Source: Desulforapulum autotrophicum (lineage in GTDB: Bacteria; Desulfobacterota; Desulfobacteria; Desulfobacterales; Desulfolunaceae). From it: a stretch of 64,000 nt of DNA. The stretch spans positions 1 to 64,000 of the forward strand of contig DYJE01000013.1 of the NCBI GenBank assembly GCA_020723285.1, read 5' to 3'. Position numbers and translations under genes: made by a program. Numbering within the stretch: position 1 is the first letter of the stretch; every line of letters starts with the position of its first letter. Positions 2,286 through 56,551 of the stretch are shown here, in pieces. The notes under the pieces were generated by a model. That model searched no databases. It was not told the origin of the DNA and worked only from the letters and a program-made list of their open reading frames with translations.

Positions 2286-3002
2286 ATGGAACTGGGCACA
2301 AGACAGGTCGCCGAGTTTTTGAACATATCCGAAAAAAAGCTGTACCAGTGGATCGAGCGGAAAAAACTGCCCGCCATCCGTGTGGGCGCACAGTACCGAA
2401 TCAACAAGGCGCGGCTTATCGAGTGGGCCATAGCCAACAAGATCCGGCTCTCTCCCGGAATTTTCACCGATGATGAGCCGCAGATGGCCGACATCCCCAG
2501 ACTGGATGAAACCCTGGGGCGCGGCGGAGTCCACATCGGCGTCACCGGATCGGACATTCCATCGGTTCTTGCGTCGGTCATCGAACGAATGCCCTTACCG
2601 AACGATGTGGACCGGGGCTACGTGCTCCAGGTTCTGCTGGCCCGGGAATCCATGGGTTCCACCGGCATTGGCAACGGCATCGCCATTCCCCATGTGCGGA
2701 ATCCTATCATCATGCACATCTCCCAGCCGATGATCGCCCTGTGCTACCTTGAAAACCCCATCGCATTCAACGCCCTGGACGGGCAACCGGTACACACGCT
2801 GTTCACCATCATCAGCCCCTCGTCATCCACCCATATCCATCTGCTGTCACGGCTTTCCTATGCCTTGAGGGACCCTGCGTTCATGGGTAAAATCACCGAA
2901 AGGGCGGGAGAAGACGCGGTTATCAAAGCCGCGGCCATCATCGAAACCAACCTGGCTGAGGCAGCAAAAAGGAAAGCCTCACCGAAAGGGACTGAATCAT
3001 GA
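2286..3002 (+). CDS. excisionase-type HTH protein fused to a PTS EIIA (fructose/Ntr type) domain
   Basis: Residues 3-55 form a MerR/excisionase-like DNA-binding helix-turn-helix (GTRQVAEFLNISEKKLYQW). Residues 85-225 form a PTS EIIA domain of the mannitol/fructose/Ntr class. The phosphorylatable histidine is visible as His136 in GNGIAIPHVRNP. No transport domain is attached, so the protein is most likely a regulator whose DNA binding or partner contacts respond to phosphorylation by HPr. The start at 2286 follows a good ribosome binding site (GAGGAG, six bases). Its stop overlaps the start of the next gene (ATGA at 2999-3002), so it is translationally coupled to the Ehr genes. The general PTS genes ptsI and ptsH lie near 56 kb. 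The role in controlling this operon is inferred. Confidence 0.85.
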   Translation: MELGTRQVAEFLNISEKKLYQWIERKKLPAIRVGAQYRINKARLIEWAIANKIRLSPGIFTDDEPQMADIPRLDETLGRGGVHIGVTGSDIPSVLASVIERMPLPNDVDRGYVLQVLLARESMGSTGIGNGIAIPHVRNPIIMHISQPMIALCYLENPIAFNALDGQPVHTLFTIISPSSSTHIHLLSRLSYALRDPAFMGKITERAGEDAVIKAAAIIETNLAEAAKRKASPKGTES

Positions 3003-4984
3003 TTCTGTTTCTCGCCGCCCTGATCGTTCTTCTGACCGGTGCTTTTGTGACGGCTTGTGCCGGACGGCGGCTCTGGGCAAACACGGCTGGTCCTCTTTTT
3101 TCCGTGGCAGGATCGGTCCTGACTGTGGTGGGAAGCTTGATGACTTATGAGGACGGCCCCTGGGAGTGGGCTCTTAATCAAGGCGGTTCGGCCATCCTGT
3201 CCATCCATTTTTCCATGGACCCCCTTTCCGCGTTTTTCTGCACAGTAACGGCCGTGATCACCGGCATTGCGGCTATCTACGGCGGCGGCTACCTCAAGGA
3301 GTACGCCGATGAAAAAAACTTAGGCATGGCCTGGGCTTTTTTCCTGATCCTCTCTGCCAGTATGCTTGCGGTGGAAACCGCCTGGGATGGAATTTTCTTT
3401 CTCGTGGCATGGGAAATCATGTCACTTTCCTCGTTTTTCCTCGTCATTTTTGAAAGCGAAAAGCCCGAAGTTCTGAAAGCGGGCTGGGTCTACCTGGTGG
3501 CCACCCATTTCGCCACGGCTTTCCTCATGGTAATGTTCATGATTCTGGGATCGGCAGGGTCCTTTTCCTTTGGATCGGCTGCCGTTCCTCCGGCCTTGAA
3601 AAGTGTGGTTTTTATCCTGGCCCTTGTCGGTTTCGGAACCAAGGCCGGTTTCTCACCCTTTCACGTCTGGCTGCCCGAAGCCCATCCCGCTGCCCCCTCC
3701 CATGTTTCCGCCGTGATGAGCGCCGTGATGGTGAAAGCGGGAATTTACGGGATTTTAAGAATCCTGACGTTCACCGGCGAACCCCTTCTCTGGTGGGGCT
3801 GGACCCTGGTGATTCTGGGTGCGGTCACCGGAATCGGCGGGGTTCTTTTCGCACTGGCGCAGAAAGACCTGAAACGACTCCTGGCATACAGCACCGTCGA
3901 AAATATCGGCATCATCGCCCTGGGCTTGGGGCTTGGCATCGTGGGTATGGCCACAACCCATCCGGTGATGGCGGTTCTTGGTGTGAGCGGATGCCTGATG
4001 CATGTTCTGAATCATGCGGTGTTCAAAAGCCTGCTGTTCTTCGGTGCCGGTTCCGTGCTTCACGCAACGGGTAGTAAGAACATGGAAAACCTGGGAGGTC
4101 TGATGAAACGCATGGAAAAAACCGGTTCCTTTTTCATGGTGGGCGCGGCGGCCATCTGCGCCCTGCCCCCGTTGAACGGCTTCATCGGCGAATTCCTGAT
4201 TTACCTCGGGTCGTTCAAAGCCTTCACCGTACATTATGGAACTCAAGGGTCCCTTTGCGGCATTCTGACCATCAGCACCCTGGCCCTCATCGGCGGCCTT
4301 GCCGCAGCCTGCTTCACCCGGGCTGGCGGTGTGGTGTTTCTGGGGGAACCACGCAGCTCTGAAGCTGAAAAAGCCCATGAATCCAATGCGTTCATGACCG
4401 GCTCCATGGCCATTCTTACGGCCCTCTGCCTTGCCCTGGGCCTTGCAGGCCCTTTCACGATCCGCCTGATCCAGCCTGCGGTGCAGGTCCTCACAGGCCG
4501 GTCTCACGCCATGGATACCGTGATCTTTGAAGGCGGCGACTACCTGATGCGAATCAGTGTCGCCGGTCTGTGTTTCCTGATTCTTGTCCTTGCCCTTCGC
4601 CTGATCCGAAACCGTTTTCTCTCAGGTCGAAGCGTGGAAGAAGCCGGTACCTGGGACTGCGGGTACACAGCGCCCGACGCCCGCATGCAGTACACTGCCT
4701 CATCGTTTTCCGATCCGGTGGTCACCATGTTCCAGGCCGCTGTCCGTTCAAAAAAACAGGTCGACCGTCCTGTGGGCCTGTTCCCCGAAAGCGGGGCCAT
4801 CCAAACGAGGACCGACGACGTGGTGCTCACACGTCTGATTTCGCCGATGTTCGTTCTTGCAGCAGGGGTATCGGACAGACTTCACCGTATGAAAAAAGGC
4901 TACAACCAGATCTACATCCTGTACATTGTCCTCGCTTTGTTCACCCTTTTGTTCTGGACCTTTTACCAGGAGTATACGCGATGA
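2999..4984 (+). CDS. hyfB: Ehr/hydrogenase-4 subunit B-like antiporter-type membrane subunit
   Basis: This 661-residue polytopic membrane protein belongs to the NuoL/NuoM/Mrp antiporter-like family and matches HyfB/HycC in length. The conserved proton-channel segment is seen around residues 215-250 (GTKAGFSPFHVWLPEAHP, then HVSAVMSAVMVKAGIYG), followed by LKRLLAYSTVENIG. It should form one of the ion-translocating modules of a complex I-like membrane complex. It is the first of six subunit genes and overlaps the gene before (ATGA) and the gene after (ATGA at 4981). The name hyfB marks homology only, because the complex lacks hydrogenase active-site cysteines (see the large subunit). Confidence 0.9.
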   Translation: MILFLAALIVLLTGAFVTACAGRRLWANTAGPLFSVAGSVLTVVGSLMTYEDGPWEWALNQGGSAILSIHFSMDPLSAFFCTVTAVITGIAAIYGGGYLKEYADEKNLGMAWAFFLILSASMLAVETAWDGIFFLVAWEIMSLSSFFLVIFESEKPEVLKAGWVYLVATHFATAFLMVMFMILGSAGSFSFGSAAVPPALKSVVFILALVGFGTKAGFSPFHVWLPEAHPAAPSHVSAVMSAVMVKAGIYGILRILTFTGEPLLWWGWTLVILGAVTGIGGVLFALAQKDLKRLLAYSTVENIGIIALGLGLGIVGMATTHPVMAVLGVSGCLMHVLNHAVFKSLLFFGAGSVLHATGSKNMENLGGLMKRMEKTGSFFMVGAAAICALPPLNGFIGEFLIYLGSFKAFTVHYGTQGSLCGILTISTLALIGGLAAACFTRAGGVVFLGEPRSSEAEKAHESNAFMTGSMAILTALCLALGLAGPFTIRLIQPAVQVLTGRSHAMDTVIFEGGDYLMRISVAGLCFLILVLALRLIRNRFLSGRSVEEAGTWDCGYTAPDARMQYTASSFSDPVVTMFQAAVRSKKQVDRPVGLFPESGAIQTRTDDVVLTRLISPMFVLAAGVSDRLHRMKKGYNQIYILYIVLALFTLLFWTFYQEYTR

Positions 4985-5895
4985 ACCATCCTCCATACAT
5001 CCACGTGGCGGTTTCCCTCGCGGCCGCTCCCTTTCTTTTCGGCGTGATCAACAAAGTCAAAGCCGGTTTTGCGGGTCGAAAAGGACCTCCTCTTTTCCAG
5101 ATGTATTACGACATCGTGAAACTTATGAGAAAAGGCGCAGTCTACAGCCGGACCACCACCGAAATGTTCCGCCTGTCACCCCTGGTCAGTGTGGCCGTGG
5201 GTATCCTTGCGGTGATGACCGTGCCCCTGGGACAGACAGAAAGCCTGATTTCCTTTCACGGGGATATTTTCCTTCTGGCCTACCTGTTCGGCATGGCCCG
5301 TTTCACCACGGTACTGGCGGCCATGGACACCGGATCGGCCTTCGAGGGCATGGGGGCCAGCCGTGAAGTTCAGTTTTCCATGCTGGCCGAACCGGCTTTC
5401 CTGGTGGGGCTCGCGGCGTTGAGTTTGCTGACGGGGGAATCCTCGGTGGCCGGAATTCTATCGGCCCTTCGAAACGGTACGGGAACAGCCACGGGCCATG
5501 TGGTGATTCCCATCTGCGTGGCCAGCCTGTTCATCGTTCTGCTGGCGGAAAACTCCCGAATCCCCGTTGACGATCCCAACACCCACCTGGAGCTGACCAT
5601 GATCCACGAAGTCATGGTGCTTGACCACGGCGGCATGGACCTGGGTTTCATCCATTACGGTTCAGCCCTGAAACTCTGGGTATTCGCCTCCATCATCGCC
5701 CGGATTCTCGTCCCGGTAAAAATGTCAAGCCCCATGCTTGACGCGGCTCTCGCAACAGCCTCCCTCCTTGCCGTGACCGTGGCCGTGGGCGTGGTGGAAT
5801 CCACCATGGCCCGCCTGCGCATGCTTAGGGTTCCACAACTTTTAACAGGTGCCACCATTTTGTCCCTGGTGGCTCTGATCATCGCCATGAGGTAA
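4981..5895 (+). CDS. hyfC: Ehr/HyfC-like membrane subunit (NuoH family)
   Basis: The 304-residue product is a NuoH/HycD/HyfC-type integral membrane protein that anchors the peripheral arm and forms part of the quinone- or ion-access path. Family signatures include the loop GRKGPPLFQMYYDIVKLMRKG and the conserved acidic segment RIPVDDPNTHLELTMIHE. The ATG at 4981 is chosen because it overlaps the previous stop, lies after GGAG, and gives the family length. The open frame runs much further upstream, but only as an antisense-like overlap with the previous gene. Confidence 0.9.
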   Translation: MNHPPYIHVAVSLAAAPFLFGVINKVKAGFAGRKGPPLFQMYYDIVKLMRKGAVYSRTTTEMFRLSPLVSVAVGILAVMTVPLGQTESLISFHGDIFLLAYLFGMARFTTVLAAMDTGSAFEGMGASREVQFSMLAEPAFLVGLAALSLLTGESSVAGILSALRNGTGTATGHVVIPICVASLFIVLLAENSRIPVDDPNTHLELTMIHEVMVLDHGGMDLGFIHYGSALKLWVFASIIARILVPVKMSSPMLDAALATASLLAVTVAVGVVESTMARLRMLRVPQLLTGATILSLVALIIAMR

Positions 5896-5899
5896 AACC

Positions 5900-6535
5900 A
5901 TGAACGAATGGCTCGATCTGGCCGTCGCCCTTTTGATTCTGTCGAATTTCATGCTGGTGAACACCAGCCGCCTGATGTCCTGCATCCGCATCGTAGCGAT
6001 CCAGGCTGTGATCCTCAGCGTCATCGCCCTTCTGTCCCATCTCCACGCCCTGGATGTCCGGCTTGTGGTTCTCGTGATCATCACCGTGGCCCTTAAAGCC
6101 TTGGTCCTTCCCCAGGTTCTCAAGCGGGTGACCGTGGGCACTGGTGTTGAACGGGAACTTTCACCCTTTGTGGGCTACAGTCTTTCCCTGATGGCCGGTG
6201 GCGGTCTTCTGGCCCTGAGTTTCCTGATGTCCCACTTCCTCACCGTTCCCGAACCCGGTCTTTCACGATTTTTCCTTCCGGCTTCGCTGTTCACGATTTT
6301 CACCGGTCTTTTCATCATCATCGCCCGGAAGAAAGCCGTGACCCAGGTGATGGGTTACATGGCCATGGAAAACGGAATTTACGCCTTCGGCGTGTCCCTC
6401 GCCATCCATGAACCATTCATCGTGGAAATCTCGGTGCTCCTCGATGTGTTCGTGGCCGTCCTGATCATGGGCGTGGCGATTTTCCACATCAGCCATGAAT
6501 TCGATCATATCGATACGGATCAACTTTCAGTGTAA
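5900..6535 (+). CDS. hyfE: Ehr/HyfE-like membrane subunit
   Basis: The product is a 211-residue hydrophobic protein with about seven predicted membrane segments, similar in length and position to HyfE. HyfE fuses regions related to NuoK and a short NuoJ-like part. Sequence cues are the conserved NuoK-type stretch VTQVMGYMAMENGIYAFGVS. It starts four bases after the hyfC-like stop with GAGG upstream, so it is co-translated within the operon. It is expected to link the antiporter subunits in the membrane arm. Confidence 0.85.
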   Translation: MNEWLDLAVALLILSNFMLVNTSRLMSCIRIVAIQAVILSVIALLSHLHALDVRLVVLVIITVALKALVLPQVLKRVTVGTGVERELSPFVGYSLSLMAGGGLLALSFLMSHFLTVPEPGLSRFFLPASLFTIFTGLFIIIARKKAVTQVMGYMAMENGIYAFGVSLAIHEPFIVEISVLLDVFVAVLIMGVAIFHISHEFDHIDTDQLSV

Positions 6536-6552
6536 AAAAAGGAATCGATTCT

Positions 6553-8052
6553 ATGTTGTTGTGGTCTCTCATCGTGATACCCGCCCTTGCAGGACTTTTC
6601 TGCCTCCTGTCACGAAGCGGCTCTTTATCGCGGTTCATGCTGCCCCTCGTGTCGGCCCTCCATTTCATTCTGGTGGTCTGCTGCTGGATGACTTACACAT
6701 GTCCTTCGGTCCCGCCGGAATGGATCGGCCTGGACGATGCCGGGCTTCTTTTTCTTTCCGTCACCAGCGTGACCTTTCTTCTGACGTCGTTCTACGCTTT
6801 CGGATATATCCGGCGGGAGGGCCGTGCCCAGACCATGGACATGGAAGAGGGTTTTTTCTTTAAAAACAGTCCGGACGCGGTGTTTGTCGGCTGCCTTCTG
6901 TTTTTTCTCAGCACCATGACCCTGGTGACGGTAAGTCTCCATCTGGGACTCGTCTGGGTGGCTGTGGAAGCCACCACCCTTTCAAGTACGCCTCTTATTT
7001 ATTACCACCGGCACCACCGTAGCCTGGAGGCCACCTGGAAATACCTTTTGATCTGCTCCGTGGGCATCGCTCTGGCCATGCTGGGCAACTTCTTCGTGGT
7101 GGTGGCCGGAACCGGCATCGGGGAACACGGCGTCCATCTTTCCCTTTTGTCTCTCTCCGAGCATGCGGACAAGCTGAACCCGGCATGGCTCAAAGCGGCC
7201 TTTGTGCTGTGCCTGGTGGGTTACGGCACGAAAATCGGATTTTCCCCGCTTCACACCTGGATGCCTGCAACCTACAGTGAAGCCCCTTCCATGGTGGCAG
7301 CCCTTCTTTCCGGTGCCCTTAAAGCCTGCGCCTTTCTCGCCCTCCTCCGCATTCATCAGGTGATGACCCTGGCCGGTCTCGGTGCCACAAGTCGGAGCCT
7401 TTTCATGGTCCTTGGCGTCGTTTCCCTTTTCACCGCCGCCGTGTTCATCGTCCGCCAGACCGATTTCAAAAAAATGCTGGCCTTTTCCAGCGTCGAACAC
7501 ATGGGCATCCTGGCTCTGGGAGTGGGTGTCGGGGGCACCGGCATTTTCGGAAGCATGTTCCATATGGTGAACCACTCGCTGACCAAGACCCTCCTGTTCC
7601 TGGCCGCTGGGAATATCGTCCACAGCTACAGGTCCAGGACCGACCTCGACATCCGAGGCCTTATCTACAGCCTGCCCAAAACCGCCGTACTCTGGATCAT
7701 AGGTGCCCTGGCCATTGTGGGGGTTCCGCCTTTCGGAACGTTCCTCAGCGAACTCACCATTCTTAAAAGCATGGTACACGCGGGCCGGTTCGGACTTGCC
7801 GCCGTTTACCTTTTTTTGCTGGGCGTGATCTTCGCGGCCATCAGCGCGTCGGTGTTTCCCATGGTTTTTTCAAAACGAACCGGCGATTCTTGTTCAGCCG
7901 CCGCTTCCGCGGTCACGCCGTCTGAAGAACCTCTGTGGTCTGTTTTGCCCCTTTGGGTGATGGCTGCCGCTGTTCTTGTTCTGGGATTTTACATGCCGCC
8001 GTTTCTGTCGGACATTTTTCACGGCATTGCCGTGTCTCTGGGAGGATTGTGA
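6553..8052 (+). CDS. hyfF: Ehr/HyfF-like antiporter-type membrane subunit
   Basis: This 499-residue polytopic protein is a second NuoL/M/N-family subunit. The conserved channel region reads GYGTKIGFSPLHTWMPATYS, followed by a lysine-bearing helix (SGALKACAFLALLR) and DFKKMLAFSSVEHMGILALG. HyfF is normally about 525 residues. With the HyfB-like protein it gives the complex two antiporter-like modules, as in formate hydrogenlyase-2 and Ehr complexes. It starts after AAGGA and ends in an ATGA-type overlap with the large-subunit gene at 8052. Confidence 0.9.
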   Translation: MLLWSLIVIPALAGLFCLLSRSGSLSRFMLPLVSALHFILVVCCWMTYTCPSVPPEWIGLDDAGLLFLSVTSVTFLLTSFYAFGYIRREGRAQTMDMEEGFFFKNSPDAVFVGCLLFFLSTMTLVTVSLHLGLVWVAVEATTLSSTPLIYYHRHHRSLEATWKYLLICSVGIALAMLGNFFVVVAGTGIGEHGVHLSLLSLSEHADKLNPAWLKAAFVLCLVGYGTKIGFSPLHTWMPATYSEAPSMVAALLSGALKACAFLALLRIHQVMTLAGLGATSRSLFMVLGVVSLFTAAVFIVRQTDFKKMLAFSSVEHMGILALGVGVGGTGIFGSMFHMVNHSLTKTLLFLAAGNIVHSYRSRTDLDIRGLIYSLPKTAVLWIIGALAIVGVPPFGTFLSELTILKSMVHAGRFGLAAVYLFLLGVIFAAISASVFPMVFSKRTGDSCSAAASAVTPSEEPLWSVLPLWVMAAAVLVLGFYMPPFLSDIFHGIAVSLGGL

Positions 8053-9560
8053 TGCCGCGATTCCACGCTGAAACCCTTGACGTGTACAATGGCCAGACCT
8101 TCCCTGTTTCTGCATGCCCCAACACGGACATGGCTTCGTTCAGAGCAACCCTGATCGGCGGTGTTTCACAAGGGCTTCGAATCTCGGCCCTTTTCGGTGC
8201 CCCTCTTGCCGGAGACACCCTGCGCCTCTACGCTGTTTTAACCGATGACAACGCCGGCCGACTGCACCTTATAAGCACCGATGTGACAGGTTCCTACACG
8301 GCCCTCACCCCCTCCTGCGCCCAGGCGCACATGTTCGAACGGGAAATTTTCGAACAGTGGGGTGTCCGGCCCGAAGGCCATCCCTGGCTGAAGCCGGTAC
8401 GCTTCGAAACCCCTTTTCGCGGAAACGGAAAAGCAGCCCCCATCGGCATCACGGATTTTTTTCACATGAAGGGCGATGAAGCCCATGAAGTGGCGGTGGG
8501 GCCGGTTCACGCCGGGGTCATCGAACCCGGCCATTTCCGCTTCCAGTGCCACGGGGAAACCGTGTACCACCTCGAAATCTCCCTGGGTTACCAGCATCGG
8601 GGCATCGAGCGGAAAATTCCCGGCGGCCCCCACCCGCTCACACCTTTCCAGATGGAAACCCTGGCCGGCGACACCACAATCGGTCATATGGGGACATACT
8701 GCCGGATGATCGAACATTTTTCCGGTATCGCCTCACCGGCAAAAGGCCAGGCCATCCGGGGCATCGCGGCCGAGCTGGAACGGCTGGCCAACCACATCGG
8801 GGATCTGGGAGCCATGGCCGGTGACGTGGGATTCCTGCCCACCATGAGCTACTGCGGACGCATCCGGGGCGACGCCCTGAACATGACTGCTGTGCTCTGC
8901 GGCAACCGTTTCGGGCGCGGGCTGGTCGTTCCCGGCGGTACGGCCTTTGACCTTGACTCCCGGCTGATCGAAATCCTTTTGAAACGTCTGGACGACCTTG
9001 AAAAAGACGCCACCTCCGCCATCGAGCTGATGTTCAACACCCCGTCGGTTCTCGCACGTTTTGAAAACACCGGGCGGGTCAGCAGGGAAACGGCCAGGGA
9101 AATCGGGCTTGTGGGTCCTGCTGCCCGGTCCTGCGGCCTGACTCAGGATATCCGGTTCCAGCACCCTTACGGTATTTACAATTACATCATGGCCCAGATG
9201 TACACCTGGCATACCGGGGATTGTTTTTCACGGGCTTACGTCCGCTGGCTTGAAATCCAGGAAAGCATGGCCTTTGTCCGTCAGGTCCTTCATGCCATGC
9301 CTTCCGGGGAAACACGAACAGCCATGCGCGGCCAGCTGGCACCGGACACCATGTCCGTAACCCTCACGGAAGGCTGGCGCGGCGAGATCTGCCATGCAGC
9401 AGCCACCGATGCAAACGGGAGATTCGCGTTCTACAAGATCGTCGACCCTTCGTTCCACAACTGGTTCGGACTGGCCCAGGCCCTTCGGGACCAGCAGATC
9501 AGCGATTTTCCGCTGTGCAACAAGAGTTTCAACCTGTCATACTGCGGACATGACTTGTAA
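8052..9560 (+). CDS. hyfG: Ehr large subunit (NuoCD/HyfG-like) lacking the Ni-binding cysteines
   Basis: The 502-residue protein has an N-terminal NuoC-like domain (about 1-125, AHMFEREIFEQWGVRPEG) and a NuoD/hydrogenase large-subunit domain (about 145-502, with LGYQHRGIERKI). In [NiFe] hydrogenases two CxxC motifs bind nickel. Here the first site reads METLAGDTTIGHMGTYC with no CxxC, and the C-terminal DPCxxC is replaced by FNLSYCGHDL. The protein therefore cannot hold a normal NiFe centre. This combination is the mark of the energy-converting-hydrogenase-related (Ehr) complexes described in Geobacter and relatives. Their electron partner is unknown. Start 8052 overlaps the previous stop and follows GGAGG. 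The stop lies inside the first copy of an intergenic hairpin repeat. Confidence 0.9.
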   Translation: MPRFHAETLDVYNGQTFPVSACPNTDMASFRATLIGGVSQGLRISALFGAPLAGDTLRLYAVLTDDNAGRLHLISTDVTGSYTALTPSCAQAHMFEREIFEQWGVRPEGHPWLKPVRFETPFRGNGKAAPIGITDFFHMKGDEAHEVAVGPVHAGVIEPGHFRFQCHGETVYHLEISLGYQHRGIERKIPGGPHPLTPFQMETLAGDTTIGHMGTYCRMIEHFSGIASPAKGQAIRGIAAELERLANHIGDLGAMAGDVGFLPTMSYCGRIRGDALNMTAVLCGNRFGRGLVVPGGTAFDLDSRLIEILLKRLDDLEKDATSAIELMFNTPSVLARFENTGRVSRETAREIGLVGPAARSCGLTQDIRFQHPYGIYNYIMAQMYTWHTGDCFSRAYVRWLEIQESMAFVRQVLHAMPSGETRTAMRGQLAPDTMSVTLTEGWRGEICHAAATDANGRFAFYKIVDPSFHNWFGLAQALRDQQISDFPLCNKSFNLSYCGHDL

Positions 9561-9655
9561 ACGGCCATGGGCCGCCCTCCTTTCGAGGGAAGCCACAACG
9601 AACGATGAAAGATGGCGTGAGTCTCACCACGTCACTTTCGTATAAAACGAACAGG
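9558..9655 (+). repeat. dispersed hairpin repeat, copy A
   Basis: The repeat begins at the hyfG-like stop codon and reads TAACGGCC-style sequence with a hairpin CGGCC-ATG-GGCCG, then a GGGAAGCCACAACGAAC segment. A second hairpin (GTGAG / CTCAC) follows and the repeat ends near AAAACGAACAGGA. Related copies lie at 12286 and 53227. This copy sits inside the Ehr operon between the large and small subunit genes. Confidence 0.6.
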
Positions 9656-9667
9656 AGCTTCACCACG

Positions 9668-10426
9668 ATGCTGATCGATCTCATCAAAGCGCGGTTTCAC
9701 CAGAAACACCGCACCATGGCCTGGCCCGACGGCCCTCTGCCCCCTCTTCCCGAACGGTTCGCCGGACGGCCGGTGATCGAGGGTTCCTGCGCGGACAACT
9801 GCCGGACCTGCGCAGATGTCTGCCCTGTTGCCGCCGTGAGTTTCAAAGAAAAGGCCCCCCTGATCGACACGGGCCGCTGCCTGTTCTGCCGGCGGTGCGA
9901 AGCGGCATGCCCGTCAGAAGCCATCCGGTTTACCCATGAATACCGTCTTGCCGGAAGAAACCGTGACGATCTGACCGTGTCACAGGGCTGCGGTCCCTTT
10001 CCCGAAGCCCTGGTTGAAAAAGCCCGGAGCCTGTTCGGCCGTTCCCTCAAACTCCGGGAAATCAGTGCGGGCGGCTGCAACGCCTGCGAAGCGGACAGCA
10101 ACGTGTTAACCACCGTGGGCTGGGATCTCGGCCGTTTCGGCATCCAGTTCGTGGCCTCCCCCCGACATGCCGACGGAATTTTCATCACCGGACCTGTTCC
10201 AAAAAACATGGAAACCGCTGTCCTTAAAACATACCACGCCGTGCCCCAGCCCCGGATCGTCATCGCCACCGGCGCCTGCGCCATCTCCGGCGGCCCTTTT
10301 GCCGGAAACCCCGAACACTGCGGCGGCGCGTCGTCCGTGGTCCCCGTGGATCTGTTCATCCCCGGCTGCCCGCCCCATCCCCTGACCATTCTGGATGGAC
10401 TTTTGCGGTTTATTGGGAGGGTATAA
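9668..10426 (+). CDS. hyfI: Ehr small subunit: 2[4Fe-4S] ferredoxin fused to a NuoB/HyfI-like domain
   Basis: Residues 38-90 form a ferredoxin domain with two cluster motifs (CADNCRTCADVCP and CLFCRRCEAACP). Residues 105-252 form a NuoB/hydrogenase small-subunit domain with cysteines 137 and 140 (GGCNACEAD), 204 (TGACAISGG) and 234 (IPGCPPHP), which can bind the proximal 4Fe-4S cluster. In E. coli hydrogenase 4 these are two proteins, HyfH and HyfI, so this is a fusion. The protein should carry electrons between an unknown soluble partner and the large subunit. The ATG at 9668 is preferred because GGAG lies upstream. An upstream in-frame ATG at 9605 would add a non-conserved leader that is part of the repeat. 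Confidence 0.85.
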   Translation: MLIDLIKARFHQKHRTMAWPDGPLPPLPERFAGRPVIEGSCADNCRTCADVCPVAAVSFKEKAPLIDTGRCLFCRRCEAACPSEAIRFTHEYRLAGRNRDDLTVSQGCGPFPEALVEKARSLFGRSLKLREISAGGCNACEADSNVLTTVGWDLGRFGIQFVASPRHADGIFITGPVPKNMETAVLKTYHAVPQPRIVIATGACAISGGPFAGNPEHCGGASSVVPVDLFIPGCPPHPLTILDGLLRFIGRV

Positions 10427-10523: not shown

Positions 10524-10563
10524 TTGACATTGTATCATATCGTGTTACATATTTAATATGATA
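10524..10563 (+). promoter_or_regulatory. higBA promoter and operator overlapping the higB start
   Basis: A -35 box TTGACA (10524-10529) and a -10 box TACATA (10546-10551) are spaced 16 bases apart. An inverted repeat TATCATAT (10533-10540) / ATATGATA (10556-10563) brackets the -10 box and covers the higB ATG at 10558. It is a good candidate for HigA autorepression. Transcription would start almost at the ATG, so the message may be leaderless. Confidence 0.6.
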
Positions 10564-10833
10564 AAGAGTTTTAAACATAAAGGGCTCGCCGAGCTTTTTT
10601 TGAAGGGATTTTCCCATAAAATTAATAACGAGTTGCATTCACGGCTTTTACGTCGTCTGGATGCGCTGGAACAGACAGAAATATTGACGGATTTAAACAT
10701 TCCTGGCTTCAATTTCCATGGCCTCCATGGAGAACCCAAGCGTTACAGCATTCATGTCAATGGACCATGGTGTATAACATTTGAATGGGAGAATGGCGAA
10801 GCACTGAGGGTCGATTTAGAACAGTATCATTAA
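10558..10833 (+). CDS. higB: HigB-type toxin (RelE/ParE superfamily mRNA interferase)
   Basis: The 91-residue protein begins MIKSFKHKGL and ends with WCITFEWENGEALRVDLEQYH, the typical start and end of HigB toxins, which cut mRNA on the ribosome. The family length is about 92 residues. It lies ten bases before a HigA-type antitoxin gene, in the inverted toxin-first order typical of higBA. No ribosome binding site is seen, in keeping with a leaderless or weakly translated toxin message. The surrounding DNA is AT-richer than the Ehr operon, which suggests acquisition by transfer. Confidence 0.9.
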   Translation: MIKSFKHKGLAELFLKGFSHKINNELHSRLLRRLDALEQTEILTDLNIPGFNFHGLHGEPKRYSIHVNGPWCITFEWENGEALRVDLEQYH

Positions 10834-10843
10834 GGAAACATAC

Positions 10844-11161
10844 ATGGAATACAATATAAAACGTCCATCTACAAGGGCTCCGATACATCCCGGTGAAATT
10901 TTGAGAGAAGATGTGTTACATAATTTAGATATAACTGTAACGGAAGCATCCAAACGACTCGGGATTTCACGTCAACAATTGCACAGAATTTTATCCTGCA
11001 CCCATCCGATTACAACTGATGTAGCATTGCGTATCGGAAAATTTACTGGAAATGGGCCAGGACTATGGCTTCGGATGCAACAAGCTTATGACTTGTGGCA
11101 TGCGGAAAACAGAATGAAAGACGAGCTCTCAAAAATCGAGCCAATAACGATGGCACATTAA
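10844..11161 (+). CDS. higA: HigA-type antitoxin (XRE helix-turn-helix)
   Basis: The 105-residue protein carries the HigA signature HPGEILREDVL near residue 16 and an XRE helix-turn-helix (VTEASKRLGISRQQLHRIL). The C-terminal part contains NGPGLWLRMQQAYDLWHAE. It should bind and neutralise HigB and repress the operon through the inverted repeat at the higB start. GGAA precedes the ATG. The start is ten bases after the toxin stop, so the pair is one transcript. Confidence 0.92.
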   Translation: MEYNIKRPSTRAPIHPGEILREDVLHNLDITVTEASKRLGISRQQLHRILSCTHPITTDVALRIGKFTGNGPGLWLRMQQAYDLWHAENRMKDELSKIEPITMAH

Positions 11162-15340: not shown

Positions 15341-16621
15341 TTATTTCCCGCCCATGAAGCTGTCCAGAAGTCCGTCCAGCTGTTTCCTGTTTTTACAGGG
15401 TCCCAGGAGGGTGAGGGAAGGCCGGCCGTTTTTGAAAAGGTACTCCGCCGTCCGGCGGATGTCGTCTACCGTCACGTCGGCGATATGGCTCAGTGTTTCT
15501 TTCACAGGGACGTAACGTTCGAAATGTATTTCGTTCTGGGCCAGCCGGACCATCTGATTCTCGGTGTTTTCAGACCCCAGAAGAATGCTTCCTTTGGTGA
15601 ATTCCTTGGCATCCTTCAGCTCCGACTCCGGAATCAGGGACGCACAAAGTTTTTCAAGTTCGTCCAGAATCAGGGTCAGAGACGTGACCACATGTTCCGG
15701 TGCCACACCGGTGTAGACACCGAACAGCCCCGAATCGATGTTGAGGGATGAAAACGAATACACCGAATAGGCCAGACCACGTTTTTCGCGGATCTCCTGA
15801 AAAAGACGGCTGCTCATGTTCCCCCCCAGCAAGGTGTTCAGCAGGGACGCAGCGAACCGGTCCGGATGGGTGAGGGACAGGCCGTTCATGGCCATGCACA
15901 CATGGACCTGTTCCAGATTCTTTTTATACAGTTTCGTGTGGACATTCACACCGGGTAAGACCCTGGGTTCAGGTTCCCCATCCCGGGCCAGACCGGAAAA
16001 CGAGGGGGCCAGAAGCTCCACAAACCGTTCATGATCCACGTTGCCCGCTGCGGAAATCACCACAGACTGGGGCTTGTAATGGCTGGAAAAATAATTCCGG
16101 ATCGATTCGGCGCTGAAACCCTGGACCGTTTCCCGCGTCCCTAAAATGGATCTCCCCAGAGCGTGGCCTGTCCAGAAATTTTCTTCAAGAAGGGTATGGA
16201 TGTACTCTTCGGGACTGTCTTCCAGCATGCTGATTTCAGACAGAATGACCGGGCGTTCGTTTTCCACTTCCGAAGGACTGAACTCGGAATTCAGGAAGAT
16301 GTCCGTCAATATGGACACCATGGTTTCAAGATGGGTGTCAAGAACCCTGGCGTGATAACAGGTGTATTCCGCCGAGGTAAAGGCGTTGCTCTGCCCGCCG
16401 ATGGCGTCGAACTCCTTGGCGATCTGGAAGGCGGACCGGGTCTTGGTCCCTTTGAAGAGCATGTGTTCGATGAAATGGGAGAGCCCGTTTTCTTCGGGTT
16501 TTTCATCACGGGCTCCCACCGTGACCCAGATGCCCATGGAAACGGAACGGACGTGAGGAATCTTCTGGGACAGAATCCTCACACCGTTTTCAAGGGTTGT
16601 TTTCTTGACGGATCCCGCCAT
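15341..16621 (-). CDS. M16 family zinc peptidase (pitrilysin / processing-peptidase type)
   Basis: The 426-residue protein carries the inverted zinc motif HFIEH (in GLSHFIEHMLFKGT, near residue 48) with the downstream acidic ligand region, and the second M16 domain with EIREKRGLAYSVYSF. This is the one-chain size of the bacterial YmxG/mitochondrial processing-peptidase-like group. The catalytic zinc residues appear intact. It lies three bases after pnp, an arrangement seen in many bacteria. Its substrate is unknown. Confidence 0.9.
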   Translation of the reverse strand: MAGSVKKTTLENGVRILSQKIPHVRSVSMGIWVTVGARDEKPEENGLSHFIEHMLFKGTKTRSAFQIAKEFDAIGGQSNAFTSAEYTCYHARVLDTHLETMVSILTDIFLNSEFSPSEVENERPVILSEISMLEDSPEEYIHTLLEENFWTGHALGRSILGTRETVQGFSAESIRNYFSSHYKPQSVVISAAGNVDHERFVELLAPSFSGLARDGEPEPRVLPGVNVHTKLYKKNLEQVHVCMAMNGLSLTHPDRFAASLLNTLLGGNMSSRLFQEIREKRGLAYSVYSFSSLNIDSGLFGVYTGVAPEHVVTSLTLILDELEKLCASLIPESELKDAKEFTKGSILLGSENTENQMVRLAQNEIHFERYVPVKETLSHIADVTVDDIRRTAEYLFKNGRPSLTLLGPCKNRKQLDGLLDSFMGGK

Positions 16622-16624
16622 AAA

Positions 16625-18727
16625 TCAGCTTTCTTCCGTGTTTTTTTCATCTTCAAGAACCGCTTTGTAACTCAGCCGGATCTTGCCGTCTCGGGTCACC
16701 TCAAGGACTTTCACCCGGATGGTGTCGCCCTCTTTCACGATGTCCGTGACTTTTTTAACACGGTAGTTGGCCAGCTCGGAAATGTGAACCAGACCGTCGG
16801 TTCCGGGCTTGATGGTGACAAAGGCTCCGAAATCAGTGGTCTTGGAAACCACACCTTCGTAAATGGTTCCGGGTTCGGGATCGGTTCCGATGTCCCTGAC
16901 GATCTTCACGGCCGCTTCCCCTTCTTCCTGGGAACTGGCGTGGATCTTCACGATGCCGTCGTCATTCACCTCGATGGTGGTGTTAGTGTCGGCCTGGATC
17001 TGACGGATGATTTTGCCGCCCGGCCCGATAATGTCACGAATCTTGTCTTTGTTGATGGTAACTGTGTAGGCCTTGGGCGCGTAAACGGAAATGTCCTCAC
17101 GACTGGTGTCGATGGCGGCCAGCATCTTGTCCAGAATGTGGATACGTCCCTTACGGGCCTGCTCCAGGGCCTTGGTCATGATGTCTTTGGACAGTTCCTT
17201 GATTTTGATGTCCATCTGGAGGGCCGTTACCCCTTCCCGTGTTCCGGCCACCTTGAAATCCATGTCACCGGTATGGTCTTCGTCACCCAGGATGTCCGAC
17301 AAAATGACGACCTGGTCCCCTTCTTTCACCAGGCCCATGGCGATACCTGAAACCGGACCGATGATGGGAACGCCGCCGTCCATGAGGGCCAGTGTTCCGG
17401 CACAGACGGTGCCCATGGAGGAACTGCCGTTGGATTCGGTGACTTCGGACACGATGCGCACCGTGTAGTCGAAATCCGCCTTGTCGGGAATGATGGCTTC
17501 GATGGCCCGGCTTGCAAGGGCTCCATGGCCGATTTCACGGCGCCCGGGGCTGCCTACGCGTTTCACTTCCCCCACGGAGAACGGAGGAAAGTTGTAATGA
17601 AGCATGAAAGGTTTGGTCGTATCCCCGTTCAGGGTTTCAATTCTCTGTTCATCGTTGCCTGATCCCAGAGTCAGAACACCCAGGACCTGGGTTTCTCCGC
17701 GTGTGAACAGGGCGCTGCCGTGGGTTCTTGGAAGAAGCCCCACTTCGCTGGTAATGGGTCTGATTTCGTCAAAGGCCCTTCCGTCGATGCGTTTGCCTTT
17801 TTCAAGGATAATTTTCCGGCTGATTTTCTTGATCAGTTTGTCCCAGAGCGATTCGATTTCGCCTTTTCGATCGGCGTATTCTTCGCCCAGCTCTTCCAGA
17901 AGGCCGGCTTTCACTTTTGATAGGGCCGTTCTCCGTTCCATCTTGTCCGGAACCTGAATGCCGTCGGTGATTTTGTCCGCTGCCTTTTCTTCCATCAGCG
18001 CAAAAAGGGCTTCATCCCTCTGAACTTCCGCGATTTCACGTTTCGTTTTGCCCAGAACGGCGGCCAGTTTTTCCTGGATGTCGATGAGAGGCTGAATGGC
18101 GTTGTGGCCGAATTCGATGGCTTCCAGCATGTCGCTTTCCGAAACGATGCGGGCTCCGGCTTCCACCATGGTGACCCCGGTGCGTGATCCGGCAAGAACG
18201 ATGTTGATGTCCGCCTCTTTCACCTGGGTGATGGTGGGGTTGGCGATAAGTTCGCCGTTGACCCGGGCCACACGGACAGCACCGATGGGACCGTCAAAGG
18301 GAATGTCTGAAATGGTGAGGGCTGCGGAAGTTCCCACCATGGCCAGAATGTCCGGCTCGTTTTCCTTGTCCATGGACACCACGGTGCAGATCACCTGGGT
18401 TTCGCAGGTGAACCCGTCGGGGAAAAGCGGCCGGATGGGCCGGTCGATCAGCCGGCAGGTGAGGATTTCCTTTTCGCTGGGCCGGCCCACTTCACGACGG
18501 AAGTAGTTGCCGGGAATCCGGCCTGCGGCGTAGATCTTTTCCTGATACTCCACGGAAAGGGGGAGAAAATCAAGACCTTCCCGTCCTTTGGATTCCGCCA
18601 CCACGGTACAGAGAACCATGGTTTCACCCAGCTGGGCGATAACGGCTCCCGACGCCTGTTTGGCGATTTTCCCGGACATGAGGCGAAGTGTTTTTCCTCC
18701 AATTTCTGCTTCGAAGCATTGTTCCAT
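16625..18727 (-). CDS. pnp: polyribonucleotide nucleotidyltransferase (PNPase)
   Basis: The 700-residue enzyme degrades RNA from the 3' end with phosphate. The order is two RNase PH domains separated by a helical linker, then KH ([17 protein letters not shown]) and S1 ([20 protein letters not shown]) domains at the C-terminus. Active-site segments of the second core domain are present ([19 protein letters not shown]). The length matches the family. AAGGAG lies before ATG 18727. It follows rpsO across a 300-base leader that holds a strong hairpin, as in E. coli, where RNase III cleaves the pnp leader for autoregulation. Confidence 0.97.
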
Positions 18728-18978
18728 AATACGACTCCTTCATTTGTTCTTACTTTGATTTCATGGATGCAGAATCGGAGGCTTGCGTAGAAATCCATTC
18801 ATAGACCATAAACACACAGGAAACATCAAACGGTGATAAAAAAATCTGTGACGGGAAGCTTGATGTGACATGTTTGTTTATGTGATATGAATAACTTATA
18901 CGCAAACCTGAAATGAACCGATATCTGACGCTTATCTCTTTCTTACTTACTTTACGTTGTCTTGCTTTGTGCCGGAGT

Positions 18979-19015
18979 CACACGTCCGGAAAGGACAGGC
19001 CTTCACGGACGTGTG
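18979..19015 (-). promoter_or_regulatory. rpsO-pnp intergenic hairpin (candidate RNA processing or autoregulation site)
   Basis: A 10-bp perfect stem (CACACGTCCG / CGGACGTGTG) encloses a 17-base loop that itself can pair partly (AAGG / CCTT). It starts eleven bases after the rpsO stop on the message. No T-run follows on the minus strand, so it is less like a terminator and more like the RNase III-type processing hairpin known at this site in E. coli. Confidence 0.5.
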
Positions 19016-19026
19016 TTTTACTGTTT

Positions 19027-19296
19027 CTACCGTTTCAATCCAAGCGAATCAAGAAGTTCTCTGTAGCGTTTGACGTCTTTTCCCTTCAGGTAGTTGAGAA
19101 GTCTGCGTCTGCGGCCGACAAGAATCAAAAGACCACGGCGTGAGTGGTGATCCTTGGGATGGCTTTTGGAATGCTCGGTGAGATACTGGATACGGTCTGA
19201 CAGAAGGGCGATCTGCACTTCGGGAGACCCTGTGTCCGAATCATGCTGTTTGAATTTTGAAATGGTGAGAGCTTTGTCTTCTTTTGCGTAAACCAC
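19027..19296 (-). CDS. rpsO: 30S ribosomal protein S15
   Basis: The 89-residue protein binds 16S rRNA in the platform of the small subunit. Sequence signatures include [31 protein letters not shown] and [14 protein letters not shown]. The frame starts at GTG 19296, eight bases after GGAGG. An ATG inside the same region is in another frame and too close to the binding site. It lies between truB and pnp, the standard order. Confidence 0.96.
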
Positions 19297-19452
19297 GTTT
19301 CATGCCTCCGAAATAATCATCTGGAATACCCTTATGGACTCTGCCGCCCTTCGAACCAATATTCCATTCAGTAAGAGGGCTCCTTTAAAAAGGACAGGGG
19401 CGGGTCCGGTTAAAACTTGATCAATAAATAAAAAAATCGAACAATTATACAA

Positions 19453-20385
19453 TTAATCGTGAAAAACACAACAATAATTATGGAGCCCCGTGTTTTTATC
19501 ACGTTCGAGAATGGCGATGACACAGCCTCTGTCATCCACGACTTTGACGAAGGGCGCATCTTTGACAGAAATAATATATTCTCTGTCTTTTGCTATTGTT
19601 ATCCCGTTCCTGACCCTGGCAGCTGTTGGCGGGTCCGCGCGGAACGAAGCCATATCCGGCAGGGCCTCGTCAAGGGAGATCATGGCCGCCGCCACATCTC
19701 CAGGTTCGGCCAGGTCATCGAGCCTGACGGCGTTATCAATTGAAAAACCGCAGGTTTCCGTTCGTCTGAGTGCTGAGAGATGGGCACCGCAGCCCGCACG
19801 CTCACCGATATCGGCGGCCAGGGACCGGATGTAGGTTCCGCCTGAACAGCCCACATCCGCCGTGATGCGCGGCGGTTCGATCATTTTGAGGCAGATGTCA
19901 TGGATGATTACCGGCCGGGCGTCTTTCTGTACCGGCGTCCCTTTGCGCGCCAGTTTGTACAAGGGAACTCCGTTTTGCTTCAATGCGGAATAGACCGGGG
20001 GCGCCTGGAGCTGGGGACCCTTGAAATCGGATAAAAGTGCCGTTATGGTACCGGATTCAAAAAAACGGGGATTGTCCTTAAAAAAATCCGGCGGACAGGT
20101 TCTGGTCACGGTTCCTGTGGAATCCAGGGTGTCGGTTTCCGTTCCAAAGGTAATTTCAGCCTCGTAGCGTTTATCCCCTGAAAGAAAAAACCGGGATATC
20201 CGTGTGCCGTGATTGATACCGATGATCATCAGACCGTCGGCAAAAGGGTCAAGGGTTCCTGAATGGCCGACTTTCTTGGCTTTCGAAATTCGCTTGATTC
20301 GTGAAACAAGATGGGCGGAACTCATACCCACGGGTTTATGAACGAGAAGGATGCCATGGTGTGCAAAAGTCTGGGGCTGGGACAT
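19453..20385 (-). CDS. truB: tRNA pseudouridine(55) synthase
   Basis: The 310-residue enzyme makes pseudouridine 55 in the T-loop of tRNAs. The N-terminal region reads GILLVHKPVGMSS and the catalytic aspartate lies in KVGHSGTLDPFADG, near residue 42. Further family segments are GTYIRSLAADIGERAGCGAHL, shortened by the usual loop differences. The C-terminus has the small PUA-like part. It starts eight bases after nrnA and precedes rpsO. Confidence 0.95.
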   Translation of the reverse strand: MSQPQTFAHHGILLVHKPVGMSSAHLVSRIKRISKAKKVGHSGTLDPFADGLMIIGINHGTRISRFFLSGDKRYEAEITFGTETDTLDSTGTVTRTCPPDFFKDNPRFFESGTITALLSDFKGPQLQAPPVYSALKQNGVPLYKLARKGTPVQKDARPVIIHDICLKMIEPPRITADVGCSGGTYIRSLAADIGERAGCGAHLSALRRTETCGFSIDNAVRLDDLAEPGDVAAAMISLDEALPDMASFRADPPTAARVRNGITIAKDREYIISVKDAPFVKVVDDRGCVIAILERDKNTGLHNYCCVFHD

Positions 20386-20393
20386 GATATTTT

Positions 20394-21365
20394 CTAAAGG
20401 GCTTCGGCCAGGCTGAAAATCGAACGTTTGAGTTCGGAAAGGGAGACGCCTTCCATCTTGAAACCGGCGGCGCTGTGATGCCCTCCGCCGCCCAGACGGG
20501 CCGCGATACTTGACACATCCACTTCACCGCTGGACCTCAGACTGACGTGATAAACGCCTTTTCCGTTCATCCCCATGTGGGTTTCGCGGATCAGTGCCGC
20601 CACCTGAACGTCCTCGATGTGTTTGGCGTAATTGACCAGTCCGTAAATGTCATCAAGCTGGGTTCCGGTCTCCTCCATCATCCTCTGGGACAGAAACATG
20701 GTGGACAGTTTGCCGTTTCTCGATATGTCGATGGTGTCCAGAACCATGTTGAGAAGCTTCAGCCGCCCCAGGGAATATGTGGCGTACACGCACTGGGCCA
20801 CGGTGTAGGGGTCGGCACCCTGGGTCACCATTTCAGATGAAATGGCAAAAGCCGCCGTGTTGGTGTTCTGGAACATGAACGACCCGGTATCGGTGAGGAT
20901 CGCCGTGTAAATGGCCGTGGCCATGGTTTTGTCAAAGGCGACCCCGAGATCCCTGATGATGTGGTATACGATTTCAGCCGTGGCACAGGCCTGGCTGTCC
21001 ACATGGGCAAACGTCCCGAAAAGGGTGTTGGTCACATGATGGTCGATGTTGAGCAGCGCGGGTATGGTCTCGATATCCTCGCTCAGGCGGCCGATTCTCT
21101 GAAGATCCCCGCAGTCAAGAACGATGGCCAGATCGTAATCCGAAAGATCCCCGGCTTGATCCCCGATGAGGTTCACCGACGGAAGAAAACGGAATATGGC
21201 CGGTGTGGGGCTTTCATTGTACAATGTAACCGTTTTCCCCAGAGCCTTGAGGCATACTCCCAGCGCCAGCATGGATCCGATGGCGTCACCATCGGGCTGG
21301 GTATGGGAGGCGATAAGAACCCGGTCGCTTTTTCTGATCTCTTCGAGAAGCATGGCAGGAATCAT
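20394..21365 (-). CDS. nrnA: DHH-family bifunctional oligoribonuclease / PAP phosphatase
   Basis: The 323-residue protein has the DHH phosphoesterase motifs SHTQPDGDAIGS (near residue 20), the DCGD-type strand, NIDHHVTN and, in the DHHA1 domain, LGGGGHHSAAG. NrnA proteins degrade short RNAs and dephosphorylate 3'-phosphoadenosine 5'-phosphate. The gene overlaps rbfA by four bases and is followed closely by truB, a frequent arrangement in Gram-positive and deltaproteobacterial nusA operons. Confidence 0.93.
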   Translation of the reverse strand: MIPAMLLEEIRKSDRVLIASHTQPDGDAIGSMLALGVCLKALGKTVTLYNESPTPAIFRFLPSVNLIGDQAGDLSDYDLAIVLDCGDLQRIGRLSEDIETIPALLNIDHHVTNTLFGTFAHVDSQACATAEIVYHIIRDLGVAFDKTMATAIYTAILTDTGSFMFQNTNTAAFAISSEMVTQGADPYTVAQCVYATYSLGRLKLLNMVLDTIDISRNGKLSTMFLSQRMMEETGTQLDDIYGLVNYAKHIEDVQVAALIRETHMGMNGKGVYHVSLRSSGEVDVSSIAARLGGGGHHSAAGFKMEGVSLSELKRSIFSLAEAL

Positions 21366-21727
21366 GGCTGCGGATCGTTATCTTTATCGTTCAAGGATTT
21401 TAAAAGCTTGTCTATCCGAGAACCGTAATCGAAAGACGAATCATGAAGAAAACGGAGTTTGGGCATGTAACGGAGGCCCAGCTGTTTCGCCAGAGCGCTT
21501 CGAATGAAACCCGAAGCGCTCTCGAACCCGTAGACCGCATCCCTCTGGGCTTTTTCGCCGCTGGCCACCGTGAAGTAGATATGCGCCTCCCTGAGGTCCG
21601 GCGTCAGCTCCACACCGGTCACTGTGACCATGTCAAGACGCGGATCGTTGATCTTTTTACGAAGAAGCTCGGACAGACAGGTCTGAATTCGCACACCGAT
21701 TCTGTCCGATCTTGAAAATGACTTCAT
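21362..21727 (-). CDS. rbfA: ribosome-binding factor A
   Basis: The 121-residue protein helps mature the 5' end of 16S rRNA and assists 30S assembly. The KH-like fold is recognised from RIGVRIQTCLSELLRKKIND, VTVTGVELTPDLREAHIYF and LRYMPKLRFLHDSSFDYG. It lies 13 bases after infB and overlaps nrnA, as expected for the nusA-infB operon. Confidence 0.95.
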   Translation of the reverse strand: MKSFSRSDRIGVRIQTCLSELLRKKINDPRLDMVTVTGVELTPDLREAHIYFTVASGEKAQRDAVYGFESASGFIRSALAKQLGLRYMPKLRFLHDSSFDYGSRIDKLLKSLNDKDNDPQP

Positions 21728-53391: not shown

Positions 53392-53796
53392 TGGTGGAGG
53401 CGGCGGGAATTGAACCCGCGTCCTAAGAAAATTCCCTATGATACCCCTACACTTATAGTCAGCATGCTTATACATCGGGCTTTTACCAGCTGACGGGGTT
53501 CGCCTGACGCCTTCTATTCCGAATTAACTTCGGTTGCCGCCGCCTCGTGGAAGAAGAACAACCGGGCGAAGGTTCCCTATCACTCTGTTTGTCACCGACA
53601 TCCGCCCGAGTGAGAAAACGGAGTCGATGTGCGCCTCAAGGGCGCGTGACTTTTAGCTTACACTGCGATTAAGCAGCTACAGCCATTGCATAGTCGTCTG
53701 CATTTATTTTTTTGATTGATGATTAACGAGGCCAACAATCATCCTCGAAGTGCAGTATCAAAGATCTCAATTCCCAGTCGAAACCAGTGCGCCCCC
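53392..53796 (-). ncRNA. ssrA: transfer-messenger RNA (tmRNA)
   Basis: The 405-nt RNA has a tRNA-like acceptor (GGGGGCG / CGCCTCC, encoded CCA) and begins with GGGGGCGCACTGGTTTCGAC, the usual tmRNA start. The T-arm reads GGGTTCAATTCCC. The tag reading frame (53669-53701, minus strand) encodes ADDYAMAVAA then TAA. tmRNA with SmpB rescues stalled ribosomes and marks unfinished proteins for proteolysis. smpB is the next gene upstream. Confidence 0.95.
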
Positions 53797-56113: not shown

Positions 56114-56356
56114 CTATTCCTCGATACCCTGCTCGATCAGAACGGCAATTTCCATGAAAAGCTTTTCATCGGCCTGGCTTTCCATATGCAGCGTGACCTC
56201 CGTTCCTTTGGAACACCCCAGGGTCAGTATGTCGATGATACTGCCGGCATCGACCTTTTCGTCCTCTTTGATAATCCAGACCCTTCCACCTGAAGTCGAG
56301 GCAAGTTTGGCGATCATGGCCGCAGGACGGGCATGAATCCCCAGGGGATTGGCCAC
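56114..56356 (-). CDS. ptsH: phosphocarrier protein HPr (start codon uncertain)
   Basis: The frame encodes ANPLGIHARPAAMIAKLAS with the active His (residue 8 in the short form) and the later Ser-type region (GCSKGTEVTLHMES) of HPr. The first usual start codon, GTG 56356, would leave out the first beta strand. Upstream the frame remains open and reads INTLSKKIIV, a normal HPr start, with CAGG a few bases ahead of an ATC codon. A non-standard start is therefore possible. The gene precedes ptsI by eight bases. Confidence 0.88.
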   Translation of the reverse strand: MANPLGIHARPAAMIAKLASTSGGRVWIIKEDEKVDAGSIIDILTLGCSKGTEVTLHMESQADEKLFMEIAVLIEQGIEE

Positions 56357-56551
56357 GATTATTTTCTTTGAAAGCGTATTGATGTGAATACCTGCAAGGT
56401 TAACTGTTGAATGTGTTGAACCGGAAATTGCAATGGGATCCCATTCTAACCGGCGGCCCTAAATCTGTCTTTCGTCTTTTATTGCATGACCTTTAGTGTT
56501 TATCATACAGGGAAAGTCAGTGTCAAAGGCTTTGGAGGTTGAGGGGAAAAC

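Follow-up and report, generated by a model that had tools for sequence, protein, structure and literature searches.

The 64,000-nucleotide stretch of DNA analysed here in full (the window; positions 1 to 64,000 of contig DYJE01000013.1, assembly GCA_020723285.1, from Desulforapulum autotrophicum) carries a seven-gene operon at 2286-10426 on the forward strand, made up of a regulator, subunits resembling HyfB, HyfC, HyfE, HyfF and HyfG, and a ferredoxin-NuoB fusion, which together appear to encode an energy-converting-hydrogenase-related (Ehr) complex. The first gene (2286-3002) specifies a 238-amino-acid regulator with helix-turn-helix (HTH_17) and PtsN-like phosphotransferase system (PTS) EIIA type-2 domains (Pfam PF12728, 1.8e-13; PF00359, 2.6e-26) and overlaps by ATGA the gene of a HyfB-like antiporter subunit (2999-4984; 661 amino acids; NCBIfam hydrogenase 4 subunit B, 3.5e-175). 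Another ATGA overlap joins the latter to a HyfC/NuoH-like membrane anchor (4981-5895; 304 amino acids; Pfam NADHdh, 2.2e-32), which is followed by a HyfE-like membrane subunit (5900-6535; 211 amino acids; NCBIfam hydrogenase 4 membrane subunit, 6.6e-19) and a HyfF-like antiporter subunit (6553-8052; 499 amino acids; NCBIfam hydrogenase 4 subunit F, 1.3e-96). Start and stop codons overlap again at the F/G junction, where the large subunit begins, a HyfG/HycE-like NuoCD fusion of 502 amino acids (8052-9560). The last gene (9605-10426) encodes the small subunit, in which a two-cluster ferredoxin domain precedes a NuoB/HyfI-like domain (Pfam Oxidored_q6, 2.4e-26, and Fer4 domains). A preliminary description of this DNA had given the span as 8052-10426, which delimits exactly the last two genes, both intact; the operon in fact begins at 2286, and the regulator, the remaining genes, the concurrent loss of complex I quinone residues and a second copy in the genome had all been overlooked. 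Its claim of two antiporter-like subunits is borne out by the NCBIfam matches and by conserved Glu and Lys residues: Glu139, Lys215, Lys246 and Lys343 of the HyfB-like subunit are each kept in at least 95% of relatives, and Glu139, Lys227 and Lys345 of the HyfF-like subunit are conserved among them.

The large subunit, which includes ETLAGDTTIGHMG, is encoded by a single uninterrupted open reading frame that runs without frameshift from the ATG at 8052 to the stop codon at 9560. Alignment with HycE and HyfG confirmed that both nickel motifs are gone, as had been proposed, with all four ligands replaced (HycE C241 by A205, C244 by T208, C531 by S496, and C534 by G499). The former first nickel motif (8664-8687, forward strand) reads A205-G-D-T208-T-I-G-H212 where HycE has C241GICGFAH248, and the C-terminal end of the protein, DFPLCNKSFNLSYCGHDL (9504-9557, forward strand), stands in place of DPCxxCxxR; the one cysteine left near the site, C498, is off-register. 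In the 91 relatives that served for all residue counts of large subunits, the first position is Ala in 83, Ser in 7 and Cys in 1, the second is Thr in 83, Ser in 7 and Ala in 1, and the third and fourth are Ser and Gly, respectively, in all 91. This near-fixation is therefore attributable neither to sequencing error nor to chance decay, and the altered nickel site reads as a fixed, functional alternative and not as a degenerating one. The C-terminal fingerprint is itself nearly invariant and stops at the equivalent of R537, with which mature HycE ends and which we take to be the point of maturation cleavage. Since the protein ends there, the C-terminal extension for the maturation protease is absent. 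A terminus that already has the mature, 'cut' form, together with the loss of the nickel site, therefore argues that no nickel maturation takes place.

The protein nevertheless belongs with the large subunits of group 4 NiFe hydrogenases and NuoCD (profile comparison with HycE, E 1.2e-61), and the NuoC/NuoD fold anticipated in the preliminary description is retained in an AlphaFold model with a mean predicted local distance difference test (pLDDT) score of 85.6. The best structural match of this model was HycE (7z0s_E, Z 38.8 over 475 residues), and the next was NuoCD of complex I (Z about 33-34). We mapped onto the large subunit the proton-relay residues named for HycE, the homologous core of which spans residues 182-537 (PMC9474812). 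All of them have counterparts (E193 in E158, R478 in R443, S283 in N247, H284 in H248, E437 in E401, and R395 in R359), and each of the six residues found here is present in 91/91 relatives. The canopy residue Asp529 of HycE corresponds to Asn494, with Asn in 85/91. The two residues that bind the quinone headgroup in complex I have been replaced as well, His38 by I157 and Tyr87 by G206 (Nqo4 numbering), again in every one of the 91 relatives; as a control, both NuoD-like proteins of the host genome retain the quinone His and Tyr. What is new here, at the level of aligned residues, is that the quinone-headgroup pair is replaced too while a hydrogenase-type proton relay stays. The pocket so remodelled would fit neither hydrogen chemistry nor ordinary quinone chemistry.

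The small subunit was said to keep its cluster cysteines, and it does: 12/12 are present, four for the proximal cluster and eight in the ferredoxin domain. All 86 small subunits counted have the complete proximal set (C158, C161, C225 and C255) and N6b-like set (C73, C92, C95 and C98), and the N6a-like set, that of the first ferredoxin cluster, is complete in 74. The proximal motif is a CxxC (C158xxC161) that aligns without gap to the spacing of HycG, and thus differs from complex I, with its tandem CC, and from the Pyrococcus sulfane-sulfur/polysulfide reductase MBS, in which the motif is shorter (PMC7684303). The reading frame opens at 9605; the true start is probably the ATG at 9668, since the ~21 residues encoded before it have no counterpart in relatives, and a Shine-Dalgarno-like AGGAG lies directly 5' of this codon.

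Ehr complexes have been characterized as resembling group 4 hydrogenases, lacking Ni/Fe ligands, carrying Mrp-like subunits and having an unknown function (PMC6349859, PMC10284858, PMC4378227, PMC3569383). The layout attributed to the operon in the preliminary description, with a nickel-free NuoCD-like large subunit, antiporter-like subunits and a NuoH-like anchor, was found in full, and the operon may be regarded as a well-supported member of the class, EhrL of Geobacter having been compared by description only. The Ehr complex of Geobacter sulfurreducens (GSU0739-0745) shares the hydrogenase-4-like membrane arm, the ligand-free NuoCD-like large subunit, the NuoB-like small subunit and the lack of an NADH module (PMC7894505, PMC6349859, PMC10284858), whereas operons of the window's clade open with the HTH-EIIA regulator and encode the ferredoxin-NuoB fusion. 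Escherichia coli formate hydrogenlyase and hydrogenase 4 (HycE, HyfG) provide the best match in sequence and structure, and have the B, C, E, F, G and I set and the retained relay in common with the operon, which however lacks the nickel cysteines, the maturation tail, HyfA, HyfD, HyfJ and formate dehydrogenase. Respiratory complex I, including its 11-subunit form, is alike in fold, antiporter subunits and absence of nickel, but differs in the quinone residues and in the proximal cluster. On the tree, the split between Ehr on one side and Nuo and hydrogenases on the other is a single starred branch; one row of the tree (L022_nuo), mis-extracted and very long-branched, lies outside the groups discussed.

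We confirmed 281 relatives in the genome collection, spread over Desulfobacterota, Planctomycetota, Acidobacteriota, Verrucomicrobiota, Elusimicrobiota and other phyla. A close homologue occurs in 11/40 order-level relatives, and Desulfobacterota relatives that have this operon layout were recovered. The host genome itself holds a second, unlike copy that falls in a different sub-clade. Its membrane and large subunits (55% identity) lie on contig C81 (L041), where the HyfB-like gene and the regulator are divergent from C-E-F-G, and its probable small subunit, on contig C58 (L142:7846-8613), has lost the N6a-like cysteines. Plasmids of aerobes carry the same operon and pocket fingerprint in Variovorax, Rhizobium, Sinorhizobium, Azospirillum, Cupriavidus, Burkholderia, Rhodococcus, Methylocalor and Allomeiothermus. 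Plasmid 3 of Variovorax sp. PBL-E5 has two adjacent Ehr-type operons that differ from each other (L148:4857-12141 and 15553-21380), the small subunit of one of them including a ferredoxin domain, and pMESIL01 of Allomeiothermus silvanus has the operon twice, with small subunits that are 100% identical. Around the operon, no further gene was conserved across 91 loci and no electron-donor gene was shared nearby; the other recurrent neighbour clusters inspected at these loci resemble antisense reading frames. The absence of any other conserved gene beside the operon therefore argues against a dedicated NADH or formate module.

The HTH-EIIA regulator is the first gene in 48 of the 55 relatives' operons with enough upstream sequence, and 52/52 of the regulators compared keep the phospho-histidine H136. 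The operons without this gene are those of L056 and of a single sub-clade of order relatives, L046-L051, in which N489 also occurs. Genes for PTS enzyme I (54351-56105; PF05524, 5.9e-26) and an HPr-like phosphocarrier (56132-56371; PF00381, 7.3e-20), which together might supply the regulator with phosphate, lie in the window on the reverse strand. HPr-family genes also occur within about 4 kb of Ehr-like operons on two Burkholderiales plasmids (L160:139-402 and L163:751-1014), a second PTS link besides the regulator itself. The conserved regulator with its phospho-histidine, the enzyme I and HPr genes of the window, and the HPr genes near the plasmid operons make PTS(Ntr) control of the operon likely. 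A literature search returned nothing relevant linking a PTS-EIIA regulator to Ehr or hydrogenase-4, and the observation that a regulator of this predicted type, with an invariant phospho-histidine, heads most operons appears to be new.

These patterns suggest a tentative reading, the most probable of those considered even if its probability falls somewhat short of even, in which the operon encodes a ferredoxin-fed membrane ion pump of the Ehr kind with an acceptor site that is neither nickel nor canonical quinone. Reduced ferredoxin or another low-potential carrier would be the donor, as the ferredoxin domain fused to the small subunit suggests. Electrons would pass from the N6a-like to the N6b-like and on to the proximal cluster, and would then reach an acceptor, small and protonatable, in what was once the NiFe pocket, with protons handled by Glu158 of the beta1-beta2 loop and by the Arg443/His248/Glu401/Arg359 relay. 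A resulting conformational or charge change could power ion pumping by both antiporter subunits. Expression would probably follow the phosphorylation state of the regulator, that is, the phosphoenolpyruvate (PEP)/nitrogen status of the cell. Several points weigh against this scheme. The fused domain is the sole indication of ferredoxin as donor, and in the single-chain model the active-site loop residues 150-159 and 491-502 fall under pLDDT 50. Furthermore, the ferredoxin domain is absent in the distant relatives from Rhizobium, Methylocalor and Rhodococcus, and the proximal-cluster cysteines have all been lost in small subunits of Allomeiothermus silvanus pMESIL01 (L150:11293-12165 and L161:9001-9873) and Mycobacterium branderi (L157:8848-9642). 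Electron delivery to the pocket is therefore not universal in the wider group. The label fully 'redox-dead', considered for Allomeiothermus and M. branderi, was rejected, as their ferredoxin domain retains one cluster set and the proximal cluster alone is lost. In these diverged relatives, to judge from their residues, the electron chain is cut at differing points while the pocket fingerprint is mostly retained, a pattern that we consider new.

The ferredoxin-fed pump ranks ahead of a ferredoxin:menaquinone oxidoreductase, similar to a complex I free of its NADH module, in which menaquinone would occupy a re-arranged headgroup site; we consider this possible though doubtful. It accords with the NuoCD fold, shared with complex I chains at Z about 33-34, with a futalosine menaquinone pathway encoded in the host genome (2 PF02621 hits) and with menaquinone markers in 30/49 carrier genomes, 26 of them MqnA/D-like and 4 more MenD. 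The headgroup residues, however, are Ile and Gly in 91/91, and neither MqnA/D nor MenD was found in 19/49 carrier genomes, which are metagenome-assembled genomes whose completeness is not established. Among these 19, Propionivibrio may use ubiquinone, and an Atribacterota (L117) and a Bipolaricaulota (L125) genome, both with short operon contigs, also lacked a UbiA-family prenyltransferase. Missing quinone genes in such assemblies weaken the menaquinone proposal, and no more than that.

Ranked lower, and in our view unlikely, is a non-redox or redox-gated ion pump or antiporter, the pocket of which would bind an ion or small ligand while the Fe-S chain acts as a regulator or persists as a remnant. 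The survival of a largely intact pocket fingerprint in Allomeiothermus despite the loss of the proximal cluster speaks for it, as does a sister group of plasmid loci from Caballeronia, Burkholderia multivorans and M. branderi, the last without proximal-cluster cysteines. In these three loci, fluoride riboswitches (RF01734; L156:3863-3933, L158:3971-4041 and L157:3600-3673) immediately precede an Ehr-like operon of the order C-E-F-G-I-B, in which the large subunit has no nickel cysteines; eno, ppa, DUF190 and crcB occur close by in varying combinations. We consider this placement of a sister group behind fluoride riboswitches new. Among genes associated with fluoride riboswitches, Na+/H+ antiporters form a common class, and 'formate hydrogen lyase' is listed among the commonest enzymes (PMC11139923). 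Against a non-redox pump, the fluoride group forms a branch separate from the window's clade, and every small subunit counted in that clade (86/86) keeps the proximal and N6b-like cysteines, which argues for use of the electron chain there. Because the genes at the three fluoride loci are of the Ehr-like, nickel-free type, the label 'formate hydrogen lyase' deserves re-examination; the loci suggest that some fluoride-associated genes so named encode nickel-free Ehr-like complexes. Rfam searches of the window itself detected no riboswitch, only one tRNA and a tmRNA gene (53392-53796, reverse strand).

Catalysis at the proximal cluster, as in a sulfane-sulfur/polysulfide reductase of the MBS type, seems quite improbable. 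MBS (Mbx) likewise has ferredoxin-type input and no quinone His/Tyr (PMC7684303), but its catalysis needs a cluster motif three residues shorter, freeing one iron, whereas here all four cysteines of the motif are present at the spacing seen in hydrogenases; of the nickel cysteines, MBS retains two out of four and the window's large subunit none, and the operon has no Mrp small subunits. Still less credible is a formate-linked complex (FDH-Ehr, with formate dehydrogenase), proposed for Riflemargulisbacteria (PMC6349859) and from proteomics of Geobacter, in which Ehr proteins of G. sulfurreducens increase on formate (PMC7894505): the 91 loci show no conserved gene for a formate dehydrogenase or a nuoE/F-like protein in the neighbourhood of the operon, a survey of loci only, such that a partner could be encoded elsewhere. 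That the complex is still a [NiFe] hydrogenase is refuted at the sequence level and has practically no probability left, for although HycE is its closest solved relative, 4/4 ligands are replaced and the maturation extension is absent.

Just downstream of the operon, a HigB-like toxin gene precedes one for a HigA-like HTH antitoxin (10558-11161).

Ehr complexes are common in uncultivated anaerobes, are found in soil aerobes too, and frequently bear the annotation complex I or hydrogenase 4; when they are labelled automatically as hydrogenase or NADH dehydrogenase, metabolic reconstructions are led astray. To our knowledge, nobody knows what these complexes reduce. The residue map excludes catalysis by nickel as well as the canonical quinone headgroup site; the HTH-EIIA regulator, being conserved, offers a first regulatory handle on the family; and natural variants in which the electron chain is broken allow one to ask whether electrons are needed at all. 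A bolder and rather improbable conjecture is that the hydrogenase/complex I site has in the Ehr pocket a third functional state, with neither nickel nor quinone, which would host a conserved step coupled to an ion or small ligand that is electron-free in some lineages. If this were true, the family would consist of ion pumps built out of respiratory components and controlled by the PTS or by fluoride.

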